Shown: piece by piece, positions 330 through 13,552 of the stretch
Numbering within the stretch: the first letter of the stretch is position 1
Layout: each line of letters starts with the position of its first letter
Assembly (NCBI RefSeq): GCF_009617585.1
Contig: NZ_WIXI01000044.1
Location: forward strand, 248,001 to 312,000
Direction: 5' to 3'
DNA: 64,000 nucleotides
From: Endobacterium cereale
GTDB lineage: Bacteria > Pseudomonadota > Alphaproteobacteria > Rhizobiales > Rhizobiaceae
Translations under genes and position numbers: made by a program
The notes under the pieces: model-generated
Seen by the model: the letters and a program-made list of their open reading frames with translations, nothing else
What the model was told of the DNA's origin: nothing
Databases searched by the model: none

Positions 330-356
330 GATCAACAACCGTAACGATTGTTGATC
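330..356. repeat. 9-bp inverted repeat over the stop codon of the giant gene
   Basis: Arms GATCAACAA (330-338) and TTGTTGATC (348-356) flank a 9-base spacer. The arm is AT-rich and no T-run follows on either strand, so it is a poor intrinsic terminator. It could be a protein-binding dyad or chance. Confidence 0.3.
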
Positions 357-3300
357 AGCTGAAGCGACCCGCCGCGTGTGCCAGCATGGTGTAGACCTTG
401 CCGGTATCCGAAGTGAGGTAGCTCTGCGTGACCGTCTTGTCGCGATCTGTACGGGCAACATCGGCCAACAGCTTTTCGAAATCAGCGATGTAGCGATCGA
501 CAGCTGTGCGGAATTCCGGCTCGCGGTCGTACTTCATCTTGATGTCATCAAACGTCTGCTGACCCTTGAGCGTGTAGAGCCTACGGGTGAACACATCGCG
601 CTCACCACGCTGGTAGCGGCGCCACAGTTCGACGGATGCTTCGTGATCGATAGCGCGGGCGATATCGACCGACAGAGAGTTGAGCGACTCGACCATATGG
701 CGGGGATTGCGATTGTCGCCATGACGGGTGGATGCTTCCTGCGTCGGACGCTGGCGCGGAGCGGATTCGGCCTGCTGCTCGTCACGCGATGCGCCACGCA
801 GAAGGTCGCTGATCCAGCCGCCGTTATCATCGCGGCGCTGCGCTTCCGTCGCACGCGCTGGCTGTTGTGCAGGACGGTCGAGCGGCAGGGAGCCGCGCAA
901 ACCGCCACCAAGGCTGCCCGCAAGCCCACCAGCCAGGCTGGAGGTCAGCGGATCGCGTTGTGCAGGCTGCTGTGGTGCGGCCGGAGCGGACTGCGCGACG
1001 CGTTGCTGCAGGCTTGGCTGCTGCAGGATCGGTTGTTGGACGATGGGCTGCTGCAGAACCGGGGCAGGCTGCTGCGGCGCGATCGGCGCCTGGGCATAAG
1101 ACGGGGCCGGTGCCACGGGTGCCGGAGCAGGGGCTGCAACCGGTGCCGGAGCGGCGCGAACCGGTTCGGCGACCTCGAGCTGCTGGGCCGACCGGCCGAC
1201 CAGTGTCGAGATGTCCTGCAAGGCCTTGATCTGCTCGGAGACGGCGCGACGCATGGCGGCTGCGCTTTCCTTGGCTTCTTCCGGCAGATCGAACGCACCG
1301 CGCTTCAGTTCCGAGCGGGTGGCGTCGAGTTCCTTGCGGATGTCGACGGCCGAGCGCCGGATTTCGTCGGTAGCGCCGGCGAAACGGCCAACCGCATCAT
1401 CGACGGACTGACGCAGGGTTTCGCGCAGCTGTTCAGCGGCTGTATCGGACTTGCCGGTCGCATCTGTCAGCATGCGATCGACATCGGCCAGCGAGCCTGC
1501 AATGCCGCCGCGCATGCGTTCGGAGAGTTCGCGTGAGCGACGCTCGGCGTCACCCAGAGTACCTTCGATGGCACGGGTCGCTTCCTGGCCAGCATTGAAG
1601 AAGGCATTGCGCATGTTTTCGGCGGTGGCTTCCGCCTGCTGCTGGGTTTCTCCCAGCGAACGGCCGATATCGGCAAACGATGCCTGCAGACCTTCGCGAA
1701 GGCGGGAAGAAACCTGCGAGGAGCGGTCTTCTGCGCGATCGAAAGCACCTTCGACAAGGTTCGTCAGGTTGCGCATGGTGAGTTCGATCTCTTCCGAGCG
1801 CTTGACCAGGCCAACAGAAAGATCACGCAGTGCGGACTGGCGCTCATCGAGCGTGCCGACAAGGTTCGACTGGGCGGCACCGAGGAGTTCAGAAGCCTGA
1901 CCGAGAACGCGGGAGTGATCGTCGAAACGGCCAACGATATTGCCGACCTGCGACAGCGTGGCCGAGGAAACGTTCGACAGGCGGTCGACATTGTTTTCCA
2001 GAAGGCGGCTGGCACTGGAGACGGCATCGGCCGACTGGCTGGCGGACTGGGCGAAGCGGTCGGCTGTCGCGCCGAGGCGTGCGTCTGCATCGCCCAGCTG
2101 TTCGGCAGCGCGTTCGATCGTGCCACCCAGTTCCGCAGCCGTGCGCTGTACCAGCGAGGCGATGCCGGTATTGCTGTCTTCAAGGCGCGAGATGAGGCTC
2201 TGGACGCTGGCGGCGAGACCCTGCTCGACACCCAGCATCTTGCCGGACACTTCTTCGCCGCGCTGGCTGATGGCCGACAGCGTGTCATTGGTACGGGCGG
2301 CAAGCGCATCGACCAAGGCGTTGTTTTCGTTGCGCAGGCGCTGGCTGGTTTCTTCCGCGGCAGCAGAGAGGCGACCGGCCGTCTGCTCGGCAGCAGTGGC
2401 CAGCTGTTCGGCGGCGAGGCGACCGCTTTCGGCAGCCTGTTCGAGCGCCGGGCGGGCCTTTTCGTCGATCAGGCGCGAGAACTCGGCCGAACGGCTGGAC
2501 AGCATCGAGTTGAGATCACGCGAGCGGTTGTCGAGCGACGAGCGGATAGCTTCGCCACGCGCTTCGAGTGCCTTGTCGACCTGATCAATGGCGGCATTGA
2601 TTTCGCCAGCGGTCTGCGAAAGGGAATTGCGGACCATGTCGCCGCGGTCGCCAAGCGATTTCTCGGCTTCGCCAAGAGCGTCCGAAATGGCCGCGACCTG
2701 ACCCTTGACCAGTGCGTCGGCTTCGGCAACCTTGTTGACGATCGAATTTCCGGCATCCGAGAAGGCCTGGGCAACAGCCGCAGCCTGACCGGAGAGGCGG
2801 CCCTGCGTTTCGGAGATGCGTCCAACAATCTCGTTGGAACGGTCTTCGATCGACTTGGTGAATTCGGCGTTGCGGGCTTCCAGCTGCTCGGAGAACTGAG
2901 CGCCGGCGCGTGCCAGTGCTTCGGTCGAACGCATCGCCTCGCTGTCCATGCCTTCGGCGGCCGTGGTGACGGCGTCGCGCATGGCAGTGGCAAGCGTTGC
3001 GGCCTTGCCTTCGATGGTGCGGCTGACGGCGTCGAGGCCGACATTGAGCGCGCGGTCCATAGTGCCGAGGCGCTCTTCCAGACGGCCGGTGCCGGCGTCG
3101 AACGTACCGTCGATGCGGCTTGCAGCCTGTTCGCCAGCGGCTTCGAGACGGGCGCTGCCGCCGTCGAGGCTGGTTTCGATGCGGGCTGCGGCCACGCCTG
3201 CGGCGCGTTCGAGATCGGCTGTGCGCTCGGCGAGCGTTTCGCCGAGATTGCGGCCGACGCCATCGACCAGTTCCGATACGGAACCGAGCTGCTCGCGCAT

Positions 3301-6300
3301 GCGGCCTTCAAGACCGGTAAGCGTGCCGTCGACACGTTCGCTGGTCTCGTTGAGGGCGGTGGATACGCTGCCAACGGTCTTTTCGATACGGCTGGAGAAC
3401 TGGTCGGCAGACTGGTTGATCTCGGCGGCAGCCGTGCTCAGCTTGGCGGCGATTTCGCCGGCGCTGGAGGTGAGGCGGCCTTCCAGATCGTTGCCGACGC
3501 CATCGACCAGACCGCGCAGGCCTTCCTGCTGCAGTTCGAGCGTCATTTCCAGCATGCTGGCGCTGGTGGCGATCGACGTGCCGATGGATGTTGCCTGATC
3601 GGCGAGCATTTCGCTGAACTGGCCTTCGGCCTCCGTCAGCGTCGTTGCAATCATGTCGCGACGGTCGTCCAGAGTGGCGCGCATGCGATCGTAAGAACCG
3701 TCCAGAGTTTCCTGCAAGCGATCGTTGCTGGAATCCATCGTTTCAGCAACCCGCTCGTGGCCGGTGCTCATCATGGTTTCCATGCGCAGCAGGCCGTCGG
3801 TAATCGTGTCTTCGAAACGTTCGGCGTTCTGGCCGAGCGCCATCTCGATACGACCGGCACCGCCGCCGACCGAGCGGTCGATCTGTTCGGCCCCCTGTTC
3901 GAGAGCGCGGGTGATTTCGGCACCGCGATTGTCGAGCGTGGCTTCGAGGCGCTGCTGGCTTTCAGCATAGACGCCCTGCAGGTTTTCGGTGCGGGCCGCA
4001 TAAGCGGCGGCAACACGCTCGTCGGCGCTGTTGATGGTGTCGAGGAGGGTGCTGGTCTTTTCCTCGATGGCGCCGGTCAGGCGGTCTTCGCCAAGGGCGA
4101 GAGACGTTGCCATTTCCATCGACTTGTCGTCGAGGATTTCGCCGATGCGTTCGCTGCTCTTGGACACCATGTCGCCCATGTCGGTCATGCGACGGCCGAG
4201 ATCCTGCTCGATACGCTGATGACCGGCGGACAAAACGGTTTCCATGCCTGCAATGCGCTCGTCGAGAACACCTGCGAGGCGCTCCGGCGTGCCGGCGACG
4301 GCGTTTTCGAGACGTGCGGTGCGCTCGTCAAGCACTTCGGCGAGGCGCTCGTGGCTGCCGCTGACGGCGTTGACGATGGCTGCCGAATGGCCGGCCAGGG
4401 TGTCGTCGAAACGGGTCTGGCTGTCGGTGAGGGCGTTGAACAGAGCGCCGCTGCGTTCAGCCATGACGGCATCGATACGCTCGTGTGCGCCACCAAAGCT
4501 GTCGGTGATTTCGGCAGCACGGGCGTTGAGCGTCTCGGTGAATTCCTGCGCGCGGCCTTCAAGCGCGCCGGAGAGTTCGCGGCTCTTGGCGTCGAAATCA
4601 GTCGAAAACGCGCTGGCAGAGGCTTCGATGCTCTCGTTGAGCGCGCGGCCGGACTTTTCGAGATTTTCGGTCAGGCTGCGGCCGGACGTATCCAGCGTTT
4701 CGGCAAGCGTACGGCTGCGCTGGTCGATTGCCTGCTGGAATTCAGCCGTGCTGGCGTCGAGACCTTCAGTGAGAGCCGCAGCCGATGTGGCAAGGCCGAC
4801 AGTGAGAGCAAGGCTCTTGTCGTCTATTGCTTCCTGAAGCTGGGCGCTGCGGGTTTCGAACGCTTCGTTGAAGGCACGGCTACGGGCATCCAGTGCCTCG
4901 CCGATCTGGCTGGTGCCGGATTCGAGCGTGCTTTCCAGTATTTCCTGATTGGTGCCGAGCGTGGTGGCAAGCGCCAGCGACTGGTCGGTGAAAGCCGAGC
5001 CGATGCGTTCGATGCTGGAGGACAGGATGCCTTCCATCGCTTCCGAATTGCTTTCGACGCTCTGCTTGATCGTCAGAAGGCTCTCGTTGAGCTTGGTGTC
5101 GAGCGAGCCGGAGCGCTGGTCGAAAGCCTCGGTAAATTCGTTGAGACCGGAATCGAATGTGGTGCTGAGTTGGCCGATCGTGGTCTGCAGGCGTTCTTCG
5201 AACAGGCCGGTGCGCAGATCGAGGTCCATGACCGCGTCGTCGGCAGCCGTCTGCAGGCTCTGGCGGAAGCTGGAGCCGCGTTCGTCGAGTGTCGTGTTGA
5301 GCGAATTGAGAACACCATCAAGTGTGCCGGTGATGGCGCGTTCGCCCGATGTCAGGCCCTCGGTAATTTCGCGTGTACGCGCAACAAGGGTCTCGTTCAG
5401 CTGGCGCGTGCGGTCCGAAAGAGCTGCATTCAGCTTTTCGGTGTTGGCGTCGAGCGTCGAGGCGCGGGTCTCGAACTGGCCAAGCAAATCCTCGCCACGC
5501 TCGGAAAGCGTCTTGGACAGATCCTCAAGGCGGACGTCGAATTCACCAGCCAAATGCTTGCCGGAGGCTTCCAGCGTCTGGACCATACTGTCCGTCTTGG
5601 CCGTCAGCAGCGAGCCAAGCGCTTCACCGGCAGCGTTGGAGCGCTCCATCAGAGTGGCGGCGCGCGTCTCGATCATCGAGGCGAAGGCTTCACCCGACGT
5701 TGCGAGGCGGACCGAGATTTCCTCGGTTGCGAGCGACAGGTCTTCCTTGAGCTGATCGTGGGCACCGACGATGGAGGAGCGGATGCGGTCTGCATGGTTG
5801 ACGATAGCGTCGCGTTCGGAGCCGAGCTCCTGAACGAGGCCGCGAACACGCATTTCGTTATCGGCATAGCTGCGCTCAAGCGCATTGACTTCCGAATGGA
5901 CGAGGGTCTCGAGTTCGGTGGCGCGGGCGATGGTACGCTCGATGCCTTCGTTCATCGCCATGACTTCGCGACGGACGGCCTGGCCGACCGACATGATGCG
6001 GTCGGTCGCAATGGTTTCCGGCTCGGAGAGACGCAGTGCCACTTCCGCCATCGAACGGGCTGCGATACGCAATTCGTGCGCGCGCGCCATCATGATGGAG
6101 AAGGCATAGAAAAGCATGATCGGCACGAAGATGCCGACACCGATGGCGACGACGCCCGGCGTTTCGAGAACCTGCTCGACAGAGGTGAAGCGCCAGATCT
6201 GCGATCCGTAGATGAGCTGGCCGAGGCCGAGGCCACCAATTGCCCAGAGGGTGGACAGAATGGTTGAATTGCGAAGGGCGGCACGCATCGCACCACCGTC

Positions 6301-6642
6301 AAGCGTGCGCAGCAATGCGGCGGTCGGACGACGGCTGGCGTCGTTTGCGGGCGCAAAGGTCGGCGACTTGGGTGCTGTCGGCTCTGCAGCTGCTGGGCGC
6401 GCCTGTTCGGCTGCAGCCTTGCGAACTTCTGCCTGACGGGCAACCGCCTGCTTTTCACGCGGTGACACTTCACGATCCGCGGACTTCGGCGGCTGCGGCT
6501 TCTCGGACACGGTCTTCTCCCGCGCTTGGGAAGTGGGGCCAGAGCGAGGCTTCAGATCGTCTTCGAAATCGTTGTTCAAGGCATCTTCCAACGCCTGAAA
6601 CGCGGTTTCGTCGATCGCATCGCTATTGTTTTTCTTCACCAT
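355..6642 (-). CDS. gpr: giant polar-growth-ring type coiled-coil membrane protein (GPR/RgsE homologue), 2095 aa
   Basis: Probable homologue of the Agrobacterium GROWTH POLE RING protein and Sinorhizobium RgsE, which are needed for unipolar growth and rod shape; size and architecture match (about 2100 residues, apolipoprotein-like repeats). Layout: a charged Pro/Lys-rich N-terminal tail (1-120), two membrane segments (about 126-148 and 163-185), then about 1600 residues of predicted helix. Residues 397-1100 are 64 successive 11-residue units with hydrophobic residues at unit positions 1 and 8. A Pro/Gln/Ala-rich linker (about 1840-1950) and a compact C-terminal domain of about 150 residues follow. 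The start is the ATG at 6642 (MVKKNNSDAID), preceded by AACGAGGCG; the frame is open 8 codons further. The opposite strand is open over 4.3 kb, a by-product of the repeat and codon bias. The family assignment rests on architecture and recall, not on an alignment. Confidence 0.8.
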   Translation of the reverse strand: MVKKNNSDAIDETAFQALEDALNNDFEDDLKPRSGPTSQAREKTVSEKPQPPKSADREVSPREKQAVARQAEVRKAAAEQARPAAAEPTAPKSPTFAPANDASRRPTAALLRTLDGGAMRAALRNSTILSTLWAIGGLGLGQLIYGSQIWRFTSVEQVLETPGVVAIGVGIFVPIMLFYAFSIMMARAHELRIAARSMAEVALRLSEPETIATDRIMSVGQAVRREVMAMNEGIERTIARATELETLVHSEVNALERSYADNEMRVRGLVQELGSERDAIVNHADRIRSSIVGAHDQLKEDLSLATEEISVRLATSGEAFASMIETRAATLMERSNAAGEALGSLLTAKTDSMVQTLEASGKHLAGEFDVRLEDLSKTLSERGEDLLGQFETRASTLDANTEKLNAALSDRTRQLNETLVARTREITEGLTSGERAITGTLDGVLNSLNTTLDERGSSFRQSLQTAADDAVMDLDLRTGLFEERLQTTIGQLSTTFDSGLNEFTEAFDQRSGSLDTKLNESLLTIKQSVESNSEAMEGILSSSIERIGSAFTDQSLALATTLGTNQEILESTLESGTSQIGEALDARSRAFNEAFETRSAQLQEAIDDKSLALTVGLATSAAALTEGLDASTAEFQQAIDQRSRTLAETLDTSGRSLTENLEKSGRALNESIEASASAFSTDFDAKSRELSGALEGRAQEFTETLNARAAEITDSFGGAHERIDAVMAERSGALFNALTDSQTRFDDTLAGHSAAIVNAVSGSHERLAEVLDERTARLENAVAGTPERLAGVLDERIAGMETVLSAGHQRIEQDLGRRMTDMGDMVSKSSERIGEILDDKSMEMATSLALGEDRLTGAIEEKTSTLLDTINSADERVAAAYAARTENLQGVYAESQQRLEATLDNRGAEITRALEQGAEQIDRSVGGGAGRIEMALGQNAERFEDTITDGLLRMETMMSTGHERVAETMDSSNDRLQETLDGSYDRMRATLDDRRDMIATTLTEAEGQFSEMLADQATSIGTSIATSASMLEMTLELQQEGLRGLVDGVGNDLEGRLTSSAGEIAAKLSTAAAEINQSADQFSSRIEKTVGSVSTALNETSERVDGTLTGLEGRMREQLGSVSELVDGVGRNLGETLAERTADLERAAGVAAARIETSLDGGSARLEAAGEQAASRIDGTFDAGTGRLEERLGTMDRALNVGLDAVSRTIEGKAATLATAMRDAVTTAAEGMDSEAMRSTEALARAGAQFSEQLEARNAEFTKSIEDRSNEIVGRISETQGRLSGQAAAVAQAFSDAGNSIVNKVAEADALVKGQVAAISDALGEAEKSLGDRGDMVRNSLSQTAGEINAAIDQVDKALEARGEAIRSSLDNRSRDLNSMLSSRSAEFSRLIDEKARPALEQAAESGRLAAEQLATAAEQTAGRLSAAAEETSQRLRNENNALVDALAARTNDTLSAISQRGEEVSGKMLGVEQGLAASVQSLISRLEDSNTGIASLVQRTAAELGGTIERAAEQLGDADARLGATADRFAQSASQSADAVSSASRLLENNVDRLSNVSSATLSQVGNIVGRFDDHSRVLGQASELLGAAQSNLVGTLDERQSALRDLSVGLVKRSEEIELTMRNLTNLVEGAFDRAEDRSSQVSSRLREGLQASFADIGRSLGETQQQAEATAENMRNAFFNAGQEATRAIEGTLGDAERRSRELSERMRGGIAGSLADVDRMLTDATGKSDTAAEQLRETLRQSVDDAVGRFAGATDEIRRSAVDIRKELDATRSELKRGAFDLPEEAKESAAAMRRAVSEQIKALQDISTLVGRSAQQLEVAEPVRAAPAPVAAPAPAPVAPAPSYAQAPIAPQQPAPVLQQPIVQQPILQQPSLQQRVAQSAPAAPQQPAQRDPLTSSLAGGLAGSLGGGLRGSLPLDRPAQQPARATEAQRRDDNGGWISDLLRGASRDEQQAESAPRQRPTQEASTRHGDNRNPRHMVESLNSLSVDIARAIDHEASVELWRRYQRGERDVFTRRLYTLKGQQTFDDIKMKYDREPEFRTAVDRYIADFEKLLADVARTDRDKTVTQSYLTSDTGKVYTMLAHAAGRFS
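3343..5454 (-). repeat. 64 tandem 33-bp coding units (11-residue hendecads)
   Basis: Counting from LDANTEKLNAA (5422-5454) down to VGSVSTALNET (3343-3375), the reading frame divides into 64 units of exactly 11 codons without insertion or deletion. Unit position 1 is Leu, Ile, Val, Phe, Met or Tyr in all but one unit (Ala), and position 8 is nearly always hydrophobic. Many units follow LDxRxxxLxxA, alternating with units of the type LxxGxxRLxxx, giving a looser 22-residue period. The DNA units have diverged, so this is a protein periodicity rather than a recent satellite. Confidence 0.85.
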
Positions 6643-8382: not shown

Positions 8383-9024
8383 CTATATGGTCGCCTGATT
8401 GCAGTTCGCACCGGAATTTCGGAAGCTGGCGAAGAGACGACGCACGCAGCCGCAGCCTTCCTTGTCTAGATCAAAATTGCGGCCGCCGAGCAGCCAGTCC
8501 CAGCAAATGCCTTTGATCATCCATTTGACGGCATGGCAGGCAGAGGCAGGCGTCCAGCCTGTGGCGAGCTTCCCGTTGGCCTCTGCGCGCCGTAGGATCT
8601 GTTCGAGCTGGCTGTTGTGAAGCTCTTCAAGCTCTTTCATCGCCTGCTGTACGGGGGCGAATTCCTCGGTGAAATTGGTGCGCAACAGGATGGTCAGCAT
8701 GCGCTGGCGCTGCTGGTCGGTCGCCATGACCTGCATCCATTCGCAGGCTGAATCCTCGATCATGGTCAGCGCATCCATGCCGCAGCAAGCGGGATCGCGC
8801 AGTTCCAGCATGTTCAGAAGAGGCAGCCGGAACGTGTTGTAAAGTTCGAGAAAAATGTCGGTCTTGCTATGGAAGTGCCAGTAGACGGCGCCGCGCGTGA
8901 CGCCTGCCGCTGCGGCAATCTCGTCGAGCGTGGTCGATCCGACGCCCTTTTCGAAAAACATTCTTTCGGCCGATTCGAGAATGGCCGCGCGTGTTTCCGC
9001 CGCCTCCGCTTTGGTCCGTCTCAT
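8383..9024 (-). CDS. TetR/AcrR-family repressor of the efflux operon, 213 aa
   Basis: The N-terminal 60 residues form a TetR helix-turn-helix (MRRTKAEAAETR... with GVTRGAVYWHF at the recognition helix), followed by a ligand-binding domain with several Cys. The ATG at 9024 is fixed by GGAGGAG a few bases upstream; the frame runs open to 9189 into acrB's tail. It is the third gene of an acrA-acrB-tetR transcript, an arrangement that makes the repressor subject to its own control. The likely operator is the 13-bp inverted repeat upstream of acrA (13567-13602). The C-terminal residues CGCVRRLF are typical of AcrR-like proteins in this clade, but the ligand is not predictable. Confidence 0.88.
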   Translation of the reverse strand: MRRTKAEAAETRAAILESAERMFFEKGVGSTTLDEIAAAAGVTRGAVYWHFHSKTDIFLELYNTFRLPLLNMLELRDPACCGMDALTMIEDSACEWMQVMATDQQRQRMLTILLRTNFTEEFAPVQQAMKELEELHNSQLEQILRRAEANGKLATGWTPASACHAVKWMIKGICWDWLLGGRNFDLDKEGCGCVRRLFASFRNSGANCNQATI

Positions 9025-9044
9025 TTCTCCTCCTTCCGCCGGTT

Positions 9045-9074
9045 TTCGGGGCGCTCTTTGAAGAGCGCCCCGAA
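9045..9074. terminator. strong hairpin between acrB and tetR
   Basis: Arms TTCGGGGCGCTCTT (9045-9058) and AAGAGCGCCCCGAA (9061-9074) are perfectly complementary. No T-run follows on the minus strand, so it may attenuate transcription or protect acrAB mRNA ends rather than end transcription fully. This would set tetR expression below that of acrAB. Confidence 0.5.
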
Positions 9075-9124
9075 CAACGATCCGACATTCGCCGTCAAGG
9101 AAACCCAGAGTTTCCGGTGACGTC

Positions 9125-12100
9125 TCAGTGTGCCGGGGTGGCGTCCTTTTCGTCCTTCTTTGCGGCTTCCAGCGGCTCCTTGCGGGCATCCTTGGAGAAC
9201 AGCCGCATGATGAAGACGAAGAAGGCCGGCACGAAGAAGATCGCCAGGATGGTGGCCGAGATCATGCCGCCGAGAACGCCGGTACCGATGGCGTTCTGGC
9301 TCGCCGCACTCGCGCCCGTCGCAATCGCCATCGGCACGACGCCGAGGGTGAAGGCGAGCGACGTCATCAGGATCGGACGGAAGCGCAGATGCGCTGCCTC
9401 GACGGTCGCGTCAAAGACGCTCTTGCCTTCGGCACGCAGATCCTTGGCGAACTCGATGATCAAAATGGCGTTTTTCGCCGACAGGCCGATGATGGTGATC
9501 AGGCCGACGAGGAAGTAGACGTCGTTGGGCATGCCGCGCAACGTGACGGCGGCAACCGAGCCGATAACGCCGAGCGGCACGACGAGCATGACCGACAGCG
9601 GGATCGACCAGCTTTCGTAAAGCGCCGACAGGAGCAGGAAGACGAACAGGATGGACAGCGCGATCAGCGCCGGTGCCTGTGAGCCCGACTGGATTTCCTG
9701 CAGCGACTGGCCGGTCCACTCATAACCGAAGCCGGTCGGCAACTGGTTGGCAAGACGCTCCATCTCGGCGATCGCGTCACCCGAGGAGTAGCCCGGACCG
9801 GCCTGACCGGCGATACGGATCGCCGGATAACCGTTATAGCCGATCACCTGCGAGGGACCGCGTACCCATTCCGCTGTGGCGAATGAGGACATCGGCACCA
9901 TGCCGCCGCTGGCGTTGCGAATGTTGAGCTTGAGAAGATCCTCGGTCTTCATGCGCTGGTTGCCTTCGGCCTGAACGGTGACGCGCTGCATGCGGCCATT
10001 GTTCGGGAAGTCGTTGACGTAGGAAGAGCCGAGGTTGGCGGTGATGGTGGAGTTGATGTCGGAGAAGGTGACGCCGAATGTGTTGGCTTTTTCGCGGTCG
10101 ATCAACAGGTTCACCTGGGCAGCGTCCGGCATGCCTTCGATACGCAGGCCGGCGAGCATCGGGCTTTTTGCCGCTTCCGCCATGATCTGATCACGCGCCG
10201 CACCGAGTGCCGCCTGACCCTGACCGGAACGGTCCTGCAGACGGAAGGTGAAGCCCGACGAGTTGCCGAGACCCTGAATGGGCGGCGGCGACAGCGAAAA
10301 GGCGATGGCATCGCGCAGGCCAAAAATCTGGCCGTTGATACGTCCGGCAATCGCATCGGCGGAATCTTCCGGCCCACGCTCATCCCAGTTTTTCAGGGTG
10401 ATGAAGGCGAGACCGGCATTCTGGCCGGAACCCGAGAAGGAGAAGCCGTTGATGGCGATGATGCGATCTACAGCCTTTTCCTTCAGTGCGATTTGCTCGA
10501 TCTGCGAAATGACTTCCGTCGTACGGTCGGTGCTGGCCTCAGCCGGTGCCTGAACGTCGACGATCAGGAAGCCCTGGTCCTCGTTCGGCAGGAACGAGCT
10601 CGGAAGCTGCATGTATGCCCAGCCGAGACCGATCAGCAGCGCGACATAGATGATCATGAAACGGCCGGACCGCTTGATGATCTTGGCGACGCCGCCGGAA
10701 TATCCATGCGACGCCTTGTCGAAGCCGCGGTTGAACATTCCGAACAGGCCCTTTTTGTCATGGTGATCATGAGCAACGGGCTTGAGGAACGAGGCGCAAA
10801 GCGCAGGAGTCAGTGACAGCGCAAGGAAGCCGGAGAACAGGATCGACACGACCATGGTCAGCGAGAACTGCTGATAGATGATGCCGACGGCGCCGGGGAA
10901 GAAGGCCATCGGAATGAACACGGCCGACAGGACCATGGTGATGCCGATGATGGCGCCGGAAATCTGGCCCATCGCCTTGCGGGTCGCTTCCTTCGGCGAC
11001 AGCTTTTCCTCGGCCATGATGCGTTCGACGTTTTCGACGACGACGATCGCGTCGTCAACGAGAATGCCGATCGCCAGAACCATGGCGAACATGGTCAAAA
11101 CGTTGATCGAGAAGCCGGCGACGAACATGATCGCGCAGGTGCCGAGCAGCGCCACCGGCACGACGAGCGCCGGAATGACCGTGTAACGGAAATTCTGCAA
11201 GAAGATGAACATCACCACGAAGACGAGGATCATCGCCTCGATCAGCGTGTGAATGACCTTTTCGATGGAAACCTGAACGAAGGGGCTGGTGTCATACGGG
11301 ACTTCGTACTGAACGCCGGCAGGGAAATATTCCTTCAGTTCCTCCATCACCTGCTTGACGCCTTCCGACGCTGCAAGCGCGTTGCCGGTGGGCGACAGCT
11401 GCAGGCCGATGGCAGCACTTGGCTTGCCGTTCAGGCGGGACGAGAAGTTGTAGCTTTCGGCACCCACTTCGACGCGGGCGACGTCGCGAAGCCGCACCGA
11501 CGAACCGTCGGGATTGGCACGCAGCACGATCGCGCCAAACTGTTCGGGATCGGTCAACTGGCCCTGAACGTTGATCGTCGCGGAAATCTGCTGGCCGATC
11601 GGGTTCGGGGTGGCGCCGATGCGGCCGGCTGCAACCTGTGCGTTCTGCGCGGTGATAGCGGCAGTGACGTCAGCGGCGGTCAGGCTGAGGCCAACCATCT
11701 TGTCAGGGTCCATCCAGATACGCATGGAGCGCTGGCTGGCGAACAGCTGGGCAGAACCGATGCCAGGCACGCGGCGCAATTCGCCGATGACGTTGCGCTG
11801 CAAGTAGTCACCGAGGCCGATGGCGTCAGTCTGGCCGTCTGTCGACGTCAGCGACACGACCATCAGGAACGACGTGCCGGCCTGTTCGACGCGCACACCT
11901 TGGGAGGTGACGGCGCCCGGCAGGCGTGGTTCGGCGCGGGCGATACGGTTCTGCACCTCAACCTGGGCTTCACCGATATTGGTGCCCGGCGCGAAGGTAA
12001 CGTTGATCGACACACGACCGGAGGATTCCGACTGCGATTCGAAGTAGATGAGGCCCGGAACGCCGTTCAGTTCCTCTTCGATCGGGCGTGTGACGCCCTG

Positions 12101-12274
12101 ATAGATGTCTTCGGGCGAAGCGCCGGGATAATTGGTGGAAATGGTGATCTGCGGCGGCGCGACATTCGGATACTGCGCGATCGGCAGCATCGGAATGGCG
12201 ATCACGCCAGCCAGCATGATGAAGATTGCAACGACCCACGCAAAGATGGGCCGTTCGATGAAGAAACGTGCCAT
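9125..12274 (-). CDS. acrB: RND multidrug efflux transporter, AcrB/MexB type (HAE1), 1049 aa
   Basis: Inner-membrane proton-driven pump subunit of a tripartite exporter. The start MARFFIERPIFAWVVAIFIM and the length of 1049 residues are those of AcrB/MexB. Twelve membrane segments and two large periplasmic loops are evident; the proton-relay Asp pair is in GILVDDAIVVVEN and the partner Lys in SAKNAILIIEFAK. It follows acrA by 12 bases on the same strand. No outer-membrane TolC-type gene is in the window, so a channel from elsewhere must be used. Substrates cannot be inferred. Related Agrobacterium pumps include AmeB and IfeB; this may be one of these or a third system. Confidence 0.93.
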   Translation of the reverse strand: MARFFIERPIFAWVVAIFIMLAGVIAIPMLPIAQYPNVAPPQITISTNYPGASPEDIYQGVTRPIEEELNGVPGLIYFESQSESSGRVSINVTFAPGTNIGEAQVEVQNRIARAEPRLPGAVTSQGVRVEQAGTSFLMVVSLTSTDGQTDAIGLGDYLQRNVIGELRRVPGIGSAQLFASQRSMRIWMDPDKMVGLSLTAADVTAAITAQNAQVAAGRIGATPNPIGQQISATINVQGQLTDPEQFGAIVLRANPDGSSVRLRDVARVEVGAESYNFSSRLNGKPSAAIGLQLSPTGNALAASEGVKQVMEELKEYFPAGVQYEVPYDTSPFVQVSIEKVIHTLIEAMILVFVVMFIFLQNFRYTVIPALVVPVALLGTCAIMFVAGFSINVLTMFAMVLAIGILVDDAIVVVENVERIMAEEKLSPKEATRKAMGQISGAIIGITMVLSAVFIPMAFFPGAVGIIYQQFSLTMVVSILFSGFLALSLTPALCASFLKPVAHDHHDKKGLFGMFNRGFDKASHGYSGGVAKIIKRSGRFMIIYVALLIGLGWAYMQLPSSFLPNEDQGFLIVDVQAPAEASTDRTTEVISQIEQIALKEKAVDRIIAINGFSFSGSGQNAGLAFITLKNWDERGPEDSADAIAGRINGQIFGLRDAIAFSLSPPPIQGLGNSSGFTFRLQDRSGQGQAALGAARDQIMAEAAKSPMLAGLRIEGMPDAAQVNLLIDREKANTFGVTFSDINSTITANLGSSYVNDFPNNGRMQRVTVQAEGNQRMKTEDLLKLNIRNASGGMVPMSSFATAEWVRGPSQVIGYNGYPAIRIAGQAGPGYSSGDAIAEMERLANQLPTGFGYEWTGQSLQEIQSGSQAPALIALSILFVFLLLSALYESWSIPLSVMLVVPLGVIGSVAAVTLRGMPNDVYFLVGLITIIGLSAKNAILIIEFAKDLRAEGKSVFDATVEAAHLRFRPILMTSLAFTLGVVPMAIATGASAASQNAIGTGVLGGMISATILAIFFVPAFFVFIMRLFSKDARKEPLEAAKKDEKDATPAH

Positions 12275-12286
12275 GAAACGGGATCC

Positions 12287-13552
12287 TTACTGCTTGGCGG
12301 GCTCGGCCGGCTTTTCGGCGTTGTCGGGCTTTTCAGCGTTATCAGACTTGGCAGCGTCGCCCTGATTGGCACCGTCCGCAGTCTGTTCAGTCGCGGGCTT
12401 TTCCGGCGACCATGGCTGCGGCTTGACGGTGGCGCCAGCGCCGGTCTTCTGGAAACCGTCGACGATGACGCGATCACCAGCCTTCAGACCCTGCGGAATG
12501 ACCCAGCGGTCACCAAGTGCACGACCGACAGTAACCTGGCGCTGCTCGACCTTGTCTTCCGCGCCAACGACGAGAAGGCTGGCCTTGCCGCCGGCATCAC
12601 GCTGGATGGCCTGCTGCGGAACCGCAAACGTGTCGCGCTCCAGACCCTGCTCGATCGAAACACGAACATACATGCCTGGCAGAAGGTCGCCATCCGGATT
12701 GGGGAATTCGCCACGCATGGTGACCTGACCGGTGGTCTCGTCAACCGCAGCTTCTGAGAACAGAAGGCGGCCTTCCTGCGGATACTTTGTACCGTCGTCC
12801 AGCATCAGTTGTGCCTTGGCCTCATTCGGGCCGGTCATCAGCTTGCCGTTCTGAAGAGCGCGGCGCAAGCGAACGAGATCGGCAGCCGGCTGGGTGAAGT
12901 CGGCATAGATCGGGTCGAGCTGCTGGATGGTGGCGAGGTTTTCCGAGCCGGTGGCGCTGACCAGCGCACCTTCGGTGATCAGCGCGCGGCCGATGCGACC
13001 GGAAATCGGCGCAGTGACATTGGCATATTGCAGGCTGAGTTTTGCCGACGCGACGCCGGCACGAGCCACCTGAACCTGAGCGTCAGACTGTGCAAGCTGC
13101 GCGACGGCGGTGTCGAATTCGGCGCGGGAAGCGACATTCGATTTGCTTAGCTGGGTCTGGCGGTCAGCTGTCTGGCGGGCCTGCAACTGCTGGGCTTCGG
13201 CGCTGCGCAAAGTTGCTTCGGCACGGTCGAGCTCGACCTGAAACGGCGCCGGGTCGATGCGGTAAAGTACATCGCCTTCCTTGACGAGCGAGCCCTGTTC
13301 GAACACGCGCTCGACGATGATGCCGGAAATGCGCGGGCGCACTTCGGCAAGCCGTGTCGGGGCGATACGGCCCGGCAGTTCGCTGTTGATCGGCAGCGTT
13401 TCCGGCTGAACGGTGATGACGCCGACAGCAGACGGCGGACGGGCAGGGGGCGCTCCAGCCGCCTGATCTTCCTTCTGGCAGGCGGCAAGGACGGACAGGC
13501 TGGCAATCAACAGACCAGCGACGGGCAGTTTCATTCGCATAGAGAACCCCAT
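12287..13552 (-). CDS. acrA: RND efflux periplasmic adaptor lipoprotein, AcrA type, 421 aa
   Basis: Membrane-fusion protein that bridges the AcrB-like pump and an outer-membrane channel. The N-terminus has a hydrophobic segment ending in a lipobox (LSVLAAC), so the mature protein should be lipid-anchored from that Cys. Barrel-sandwich/lipoyl halves (EVRPRISGIIVERV and ANVTAPISGRIGRALI) flank an alpha-helical hairpin, then a beta-barrel domain; the C-terminal 40 residues are an unusual Glu/Lys/Pro/Asn-rich tail (NAEKPDNAEKPAEPAKQ). The first ATG at 13552 is used; an internal ATG at 13540 with GGGG ahead of it is equally possible. It is the first gene of the operon, just downstream of the operator-like palindrome. 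Confidence 0.92.
   Translation of the reverse strand: MGFSMRMKLPVAGLLIASLSVLAACQKEDQAAGAPPARPPSAVGVITVQPETLPINSELPGRIAPTRLAEVRPRISGIIVERVFEQGSLVKEGDVLYRIDPAPFQVELDRAEATLRSAEAQQLQARQTADRQTQLSKSNVASRAEFDTAVAQLAQSDAQVQVARAGVASAKLSLQYANVTAPISGRIGRALITEGALVSATGSENLATIQQLDPIYADFTQPAADLVRLRRALQNGKLMTGPNEAKAQLMLDDGTKYPQEGRLLFSEAAVDETTGQVTMRGEFPNPDGDLLPGMYVRVSIEQGLERDTFAVPQQAIQRDAGGKASLLVVGAEDKVEQRQVTVGRALGDRWVIPQGLKAGDRVIVDGFQKTGAGATVKPQPWSPEKPATEQTADGANQGDAAKSDNAEKPDNAEKPAEPAKQ

Follow-up and report, generated by a model that had tools for sequence, protein, structure and literature searches.

The window analysed here, i.e. the whole 64,000-nucleotide stretch of Endobacterium cereale DNA, contains a gene on the minus strand (window 355..6642) that encodes a protein of 2,095 aa and starts with an ATG at 6642; an in-frame GTG at window 6666 is also possible as the start. 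Upstream of this gene, genes for a TetR-type regulator, an AcrB-type RND pump, and an HlyD-type fusion protein are present on the same strand (window 8383-13552). The near-absence from the gene of codons that yield antisense stops (TTA, 0; CTA, 0; and TCA, 3) keeps a frame of 1,450 aa on the plus strand (window 1915-6267) open over much of its length. This antisense frame is probably a by-product of codon bias and not a gene; antisense frames that exceed the gene in length were also observed at five other loci with intact contigs (L138, L139, L141, L144, and L155). The records of the nearest named relatives are those of 'Rhizobiales bacterium AFS080716' and Neorhizobium sp. JUb45.

The protein matches the Pfam family PF01442 with a score of 217.5 bits, which is above the curated cut-off of 90, and all seven of its NCBIfam matches are under their respective cut-offs. 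A transmembrane (TM) hairpin is predicted at approximately residues 122-187 (window 6082..6279; this and all other features of the protein are on the minus strand) on the basis of AlphaFold2 helices and hydrophobic stretches. It is followed by a conserved helical neck at approximately residues 211-315 (window 5698..6012), which was delimited by an alignment of 14 sequences, the AlphaFold2 model, and a period of 3.58 (computed on residues 201-310) and which overlaps the first of the hendecad runs described below. At the other end, a conserved C-terminal domain of 123 aa (residues 1973-2095; window 358..726) comprises seven predicted helices, shows a mean column identity of 91% in 12 sequences, and is shared by 39 of 40 relatives and, within the order, by 156 of 159 genomes. 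The Pfam search of the protein yielded no match in residues 1973-2095, and a Foldseek search with this domain yielded no PDB match better than E 0.34. In an AlphaFold2 monomer model of residues 121-520, helices 122-149 and 162-204 form the TM hairpin, followed by the neck helix and a single helix at approximately 319-519 that spans a register change, the latter with modest confidence (pTM of 0.23, and pLDDT of 55-70 across the final 50 residues). The arrangement typical of the GPR/RgsE proteins, i.e. two N-terminal TM helices and then a very long helix, is therefore predicted for the modelled residues 121-520, and two TM helices have been published for GPR (PMC8262873). The size, the predicted TM hairpin, the C-terminal domain, and the orthologue found in S. 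meliloti (L091) together identify the protein as a member of the GPR/RgsE type, in agreement with the family assignment made in the first-pass annotation.

Residues 397-1100 (window 3343..5454) consist of 64 consecutive 11-residue units, or hendecads, with zero insertions or deletions. A register hidden Markov model (HMM), the emissions of which were estimated from this block itself, detected one run of 64.2 units at residues 395-1100 (assigned to register 0) and no run in any of 50 shuffles of residues 201-1750. The ends of the block are thus placed within two residues of those given in the first-pass annotation, which had described 64 unbroken units with hydrophobic residues at positions 1 and 8. 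Large hydrophobic residues (ILMFVWY) occupy position 1 in 63 and position 8 in 63 of the 64 units and any other position in no more than 11. Their autocorrelation is 0.667 at lag 11 and 0.689 at lag 22, compared with a weaker value of 0.269 at lag 7, and no lag-11 value among 1,000 shuffles exceeded 0.128. In a Fourier analysis of the block, the main period is 3.67 (11/3). The nearly straight coil, as opposed to a left-handed heptad coil, that had been proposed from the sequence is supported by the supercoil difference of just 0.03 given for hendecads (PMC9858780).

The hendecad pattern also flanks the main block in shifted registers and extends, according to the HMM, over residues 239-1519. 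On the N-terminal side, a run of 38 aa (residues 239-276) precedes the first long run of 118 aa (residues 277-394, window 5461..5814; 10.7 units in register 4), and runs of 38 and 118 aa lead the array in all 76 close orthologues. On the C-terminal side, runs of 8.5 units in register 3 (residues 1101-1194, window 3061..3342) and 8.0 units in register 10 (residues 1195-1282, window 2797..3060) are followed by further short runs with shifts of +3 and +7 (residues 1283-1519, window 2086..2796). In the close orthologues, 504 of 507 register shifts between adjacent runs of at least 33 aa were 7, 3, or 10 modulo 11, as were 122 of 129 at the order-wide loci. These shifts match one, two, and three heptads, respectively, and many of the junctions are inherited and hence non-independent.

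The close orthologues were the best 80 of 509 relatives, from which four loci cut by contig ends (L052, L057, L083, and L107) were removed; the remaining 76 are mostly named Rhizobium, Neorhizobium, Agrobacterium, Sinorhizobium/Ensifer, Ciceribacter, and similar. The longest run in this set ranges from 29 to 97 units (median, 55), and the idea that 64 units or 704 residues represent a selected length was rejected on this basis. Gaps within the block were found in 75 of the 76 orthologues, and 272 of the 393 gaps, or 173 of the 248 distinct position-length events, are multiples of 11, the other 121 gaps being not of whole units. The net change in block length is 0 modulo 11 in 45 of the 76 orthologues, and in the other 31 it is mostly 10 (12 orthologues), 7 (10), or 6 (4). 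We also compared 37 disjoint close pairs, for which one of each near-identical couple was dropped, as were loci lacking a partner with sufficient k-mer overlap. In the main runs of these pairs, 61 gaps were counted, of which 50 are multiples of 11 and 11 are not (binomial probability of ~1e-41, a value that takes 1 in 11 as the chance expectation and ignores shared descent and mechanism). The absence of indels, which the first-pass annotation had taken as a sign of strong selection for phase, therefore does not extend beyond the one protein, as orthologues often gain or lose whole units; the frequent indels looked for in orthologues do occur, yet most of them leave the register in place, and the selection for phase itself stood. 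Taken together, the alignments show that the length of the array drifts while its register mostly stays. Outside the main block, in residues 200-396 and 1101-1750 (window 5455-6045 and 1393-3342), gaps of the 11n+7 class are frequent besides those of 11n, the lengths being 11 (189 of 350), 29 (45), 22 (22), 62 (13), and 18 (9). The arrays of two Agrobacterium vitis records, L059 and L064, are natural length variants: one is longer by 88 residues (8 units), and the run that aligns shows 1.8% amino acid change.

Constraint within the units was examined in the same 37 pairs. Plotted round the helix, the rate of change per position fits a cosine that has its centre at -22 degrees, between positions 1 and 8 (r = -0.957), and the slowest positions are 1, 4, 8, and 5 (0.101, 0.121, 0.129, and 0.170, respectively), which correspond to a, d, h, and e; the next is position 9 (0.181). 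The synonymous rate is flat by position (0.27-0.36). The canonical hendecad core is a/d/e/h (PMC6131620), so that the block combines the period and the core positions of a hendecad coiled coil, with d and e not being hydrophobic here. No change of hydrophobic class was detected at the 128 core sites in comparison with either L032 or L031, and synonymous changes were present at 38 and 39 of the same 128 sites, respectively. In more distant orthologues, class changes were found at 0 of 106 (L038), 1 of 128 (L046), and 5 of 126 (L091) core sites. Independently of the indels, this unchanged core class alongside ordinary synonymous change shows that the phase is under selection. Maintenance of the array solely by recent homogenisation was rejected, as the units are merely 13% identical to each other outside the core.

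Whole-unit indels alone are no proof of selection, because exchange between repeats yields them mechanically. When 16 inserts were compared with their own gene, the stretch most similar to the insert (the two may overlap) was shifted by 0 modulo 11 in 13 cases, with DNA identities of 0.72-0.97 there, and the whole-unit indels are thus partly mechanical in origin. The resemblance of the inserts to nearby units at whole-unit shifts, along with the richness of the block in Gly, Ser, and Thr, would also fit a flexible or conditionally disordered scaffold that provides many weak binding sites or forms condensates, with the phase being a by-product of tandem duplication; a condensate role has been speculated for the disordered ends of GPR (PMC13170164). 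We regard this explanation as improbable, since the register is still kept in units that have diverged so far outside the core, and since no core class change was seen against L031 or L032 despite ordinary synonymous change.

The order-wide set consisted of 55 further loci (40 fetched of 156 matching genomes and 15 others), three of which are from the window's own family. The 40 fetched genomes were picked to cover about one per family and to include the longest frames, and long arrays are consequently over-represented. Runs were read from the gene itself at every locus, with HMM emissions estimated in a pass on 40 loci that took the longer antisense frame at six (L127, which is cut by its contig end, and the five antisense-frame loci listed above). 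The longest run ranges from 0 to 150 units and is longer than 64 units at 26 of the 55 loci in this sample tilted to long frames. The longest array, in L114, has 150 units (1,653 aa), all of which are distinct, with a hydrophobic residue at position 1 in 150 and at position 8 in 116 of them. At the other extreme, L124 has no run and L115 has just 8 units, so a long array is not strictly required within the order. Pro is nearly missing from runs of at least 20 units (22 of 56,190 and 13 of 45,223 residues in two counts; in total 35 of 101,413, or ~0.03%), which leaves hardly any kink or turn sites. Charges were counted by position at the 42 of the 55 loci that have runs of at least 30 units: basic residues outnumber acidic ones at position 4 in 41 loci, and acidic residues outnumber basic ones at position 2, on the opposite side of the hydrophobic stripe, in 40. 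At position 7, which is on the same side as position 4, acidic residues exceed basic ones on average (0.30 versus 0.16).

Matches to the neck were found in 12 of 143 genomes of the class, nine of them outside the order, and seven of these nine were fetched (L183-L189). Five of the seven lack a hendecad run of 33 aa, the longest runs in the other two being 6 and 17 units, and the C-terminal domain scores at least 200 in six of the seven proteins. Judging from this small sample of seven, the long array looks like an elaboration that arose within the order. L183-L189 are 727-1,926 aa in length. They have the neck and what looks like a TM hairpin; most have the C-terminal domain, and most lack an array. 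One of them, with 881 aa, is close to the size reported for TipN of Caulobacter (882 aa; PMC13170164), and it is possible that these proteins and the GPR/RgsE type form a wider family.

The PF01442 match bears on the published idea that GPR organises lipid at the growth pole, which leans on this match (PMC8262873). Under this idea, the block would be an amphipathic helix that lies flat on the inner membrane or other lipid at the growth pole, as apolipoproteins or perilipin 4 do, and organises lipid there. The straight amphipathic stripe (hydrophobic moment of 0.35 at 98.2 degrees), the score above the cut-off, and the gapless alignment of apolipoprotein A-IV to the protein over 195 residues are consistent with such a helix, as is the precedent of perilipin 4, in which 29 33-mers without indels carry one-sided charge on a lipid surface (PMC5889406). 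To examine the match, residues were permuted inside each of the 11 positions, which destroys homology and keeps the rhythm. The block alone scored 124.9 bits with PF01442, and four such within-position shuffles scored 120.3, 119.3, 125.0, and 111.7 bits; one full shuffle of the block gave no match. The score is therefore not above that expected from positional composition, and the match is an effect of periodicity and composition. Apolipoproteins are built of Pro-punctuated 22-mers, and several Pro residues are present in the aligned A-IV, in contrast to the near-absence of Pro from the long runs described here. Apolipoprotein homology inferred from PF01442 was accordingly rejected, and the comparison with exchangeable apolipoproteins drawn in the first-pass annotation did not hold as a statement of kinship, given the shuffles, the scarcity of Pro, and the strongly acidic block (net charge of -62 over 704 aa). 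On a lipid-binding score with thresholds of 1.34 and 0.68, no 18-mer of the block exceeds 1.34 and 1.6% exceed 0.68. In addition, the polar position 4 is as slow to change as the Leu positions, and perilipin 4 lacks bulky hydrophobic residues (PMC8064757), which fill both core positions here. A lipid-lying helix thus seems rather unlikely. As far as can be judged from sequence, packing of protein against protein is favoured over a membrane-lying helix by the acidic charge and by the presence of polar or small residues within the constrained face.

We consider it on balance probable that the block forms a membrane-anchored hendecad coiled-coil rod in which identical strands, probably at least three, run parallel and in register. 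Each block would be one continuous alpha-helical strand of a nearly straight rod, with the N-terminal TM hairpin anchoring it in the inner membrane and the C-terminal domain located at the far end, and at the growth pole the rod would serve as a rigid spacer or as a scaffold. Leu/Ile at positions 1 and 8, i.e. the a/h stripe, would form the interface together with position 4 (d), which is Arg or a small residue, and position 5 (e), which is Ser, Thr, Ala, or Gly. An off-unit indel would turn the stripe away from the partner strands, which would explain why the register is selected while the length is nearly free and drifts by whole units. Such a rod is in line with a register kept over 64 units in the window and over up to 150 distinct units in L114, with the predominance of whole-unit gaps, the slow change of a, d, e, and h, and the scarcity of Pro, and with the basic position 4 and acidic position 2 lying on opposite sides of the stripe.

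The proposed number of strands depends on the packing rule that hendecads need small, mostly Ala, cores or higher oligomers (PMC9858780). Core Ala is scarce, with 1 of 64 residues at each of positions 1 and 8 in the block, 1.4% at both positions in the close orthologues, and 0.5-8% in larger sets, which points to three or more strands under this rule; at position 8, small residues account for 11% in the order-wide set. A two-stranded hendecad rod has precedents in Scy, a dimeric coiled coil of more than 1,000 residues that are almost all in hendecads (PMC9858780), and in the ATP synthase b dimer, a right-handed hendecad coil (PMC6131620), with which the canonical core positions are shared. However, the dimeric hendecads of FilP and Scy are Ala-rich (PMC9858780), which the cores described here are not, and we judge a two-stranded rod to be quite unlikely.

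A multi-stranded, in-register rod can be compared with published deletions in GPR. A deletion of ~20 aa in the GPR rod interferes strongly when mixed with the wild type, and alone it forms foci and partly works (PMC8262873); interference in the mixture would be expected where strands must match in register. The computed rotation of the stripe is 164 degrees for a deletion of 20 residues, -98 degrees for 21, and 0 degrees for 22. The stated length of the GPR deletions varies from place to place (20, 21, or 22 residues), and a deletion of the same size near residue 1,100 has a milder effect (PMC8262873), so the argument for register from these deletions is a weak one. Several observations speak against a rod: Gly (54 of 704 residues), Ser, and Thr are more abundant than a stable helix would lead one to expect, 31 of the 76 orthologues are off by a non-multiple of 11, the one-sided charge is broken by the acidic position 7 and has a lipid-bound counterpart in perilipin 4, position 8 includes small residues, and a long run is short or missing in some orthologues (L115 and L124). 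The figure of 600 nm for 1,700 residues in the GPR paper corresponds to an extended chain, an alpha-helix of this size being 255 nm.

At 0.15 nm per residue, the main block would be ~106 nm and the array of L114 248 nm in length, and the longest runs of the close orthologues would span ~49-160 nm. A further idea is that the array serves as an evolvable ruler, in which the number of units would set the length of the rigid rod and, through it, the growth-pole ring's spacing or diameter, the register being kept for strand assembly. For a ring of 200 nm, one sixth of the circumference comes to 105 nm; this match may be a coincidence, because unit numbers differ among orthologues and the ring measurement is from a different species, and we hold the ruler to be a long shot. 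In a bolder form, the rod might be coupled to the TolQR motor, by analogy with the ZorA tail in its own motor complex, an idea prompted by the published contacts of RgsE with TolQ, besides those with RgsA and RgsS (PMC7327166).

The protein itself is known, and its 64-unit array is a real and striking feature. Full-text searches of open-licence papers listed none on hendecads in this protein. What is new, as far as we have seen, is the precise register, the variation in length by whole units, how long the longest arrays are, and the shuffle control that removes the apolipoprotein argument. For arrays of this kind, a PF01442 match is no evidence of apolipoprotein kinship, and the rod replaces the lipid-carrier reading of an important polar-growth protein with a mechanical one that can be tested. 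With up to 150 unbroken hendecads, these arrays may belong to the longest on record; perilipin 4, for comparison, has 87 units of 11.

Among known systems, Agrobacterium GPR and Sinorhizobium RgsE share with the protein its size, two N-terminal TM helices, a long helical middle, PF01442, and presence across the order (PMC8262873 and PMC7327166). GPR forms a ring at the growth pole and is needed for normal polar growth (PMC8262873), and loss of RgsE slows growth without stopping it (PMC7327166). Apolipoprotein A-IV-like domains and two short predicted coils are described for GPR, and the main text of that paper contains none of the terms 'hendecad', '11-residue', '22-residue', '11-mer', or 'repeat' (PMC8262873); RgsE is termed 'large and repeat-containing', with no period given in the passages concerned (PMC7327166). 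Perilipin 4 resembles the block in its long unbroken 11-mer array and its one-sided charge, but its 33-mers are net positive, well conserved, and devoid of bulky hydrophobic residues, and it binds lipid droplets (PMC5889406 and PMC8064757), whereas the block has Leu/Ile cores, net negative charge, and diverged units. The apolipoproteins A1, A4, and E share the 11/22-residue phase and differ in being lipid carriers. The ZorA tail of the Zorya system is likewise a long cytoplasmic helical rod anchored to the membrane, of a kind whose structure has been solved, but it is pentameric and part of a motor complex (PMC11890865). In ZorA frames, short hendecad runs of up to 8.6 units were found in four of five, and lag 7 equals or exceeds lag 11 in four of five. 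The ZorA model NF033914 matches the protein over profile positions 260-558 of 619 at 53.3 bits, compared with a cut-off of 190, which falls short of a whole-length match.

Scy and FilP of Streptomyces have a role in polar growth. Like the proposed rod, they are giant hendecad coiled coils associated with the pole or division, but they are DivIVA-like and have Ala-rich dimeric cores (PMC9858780), whereas the GPR/RgsE-type protein has a TM hairpin and Leu/Ile cores. A DivIVA-like N-terminal domain is not among the 10 Pfam families that match the protein at E values up to 1. We infer that the rods of Scy/FilP and of the GPR/RgsE type are a case of convergence, and if polar growers of two phyla have separately reached giant hendecad rods, the length and register of such rods become a general question of polar growth.
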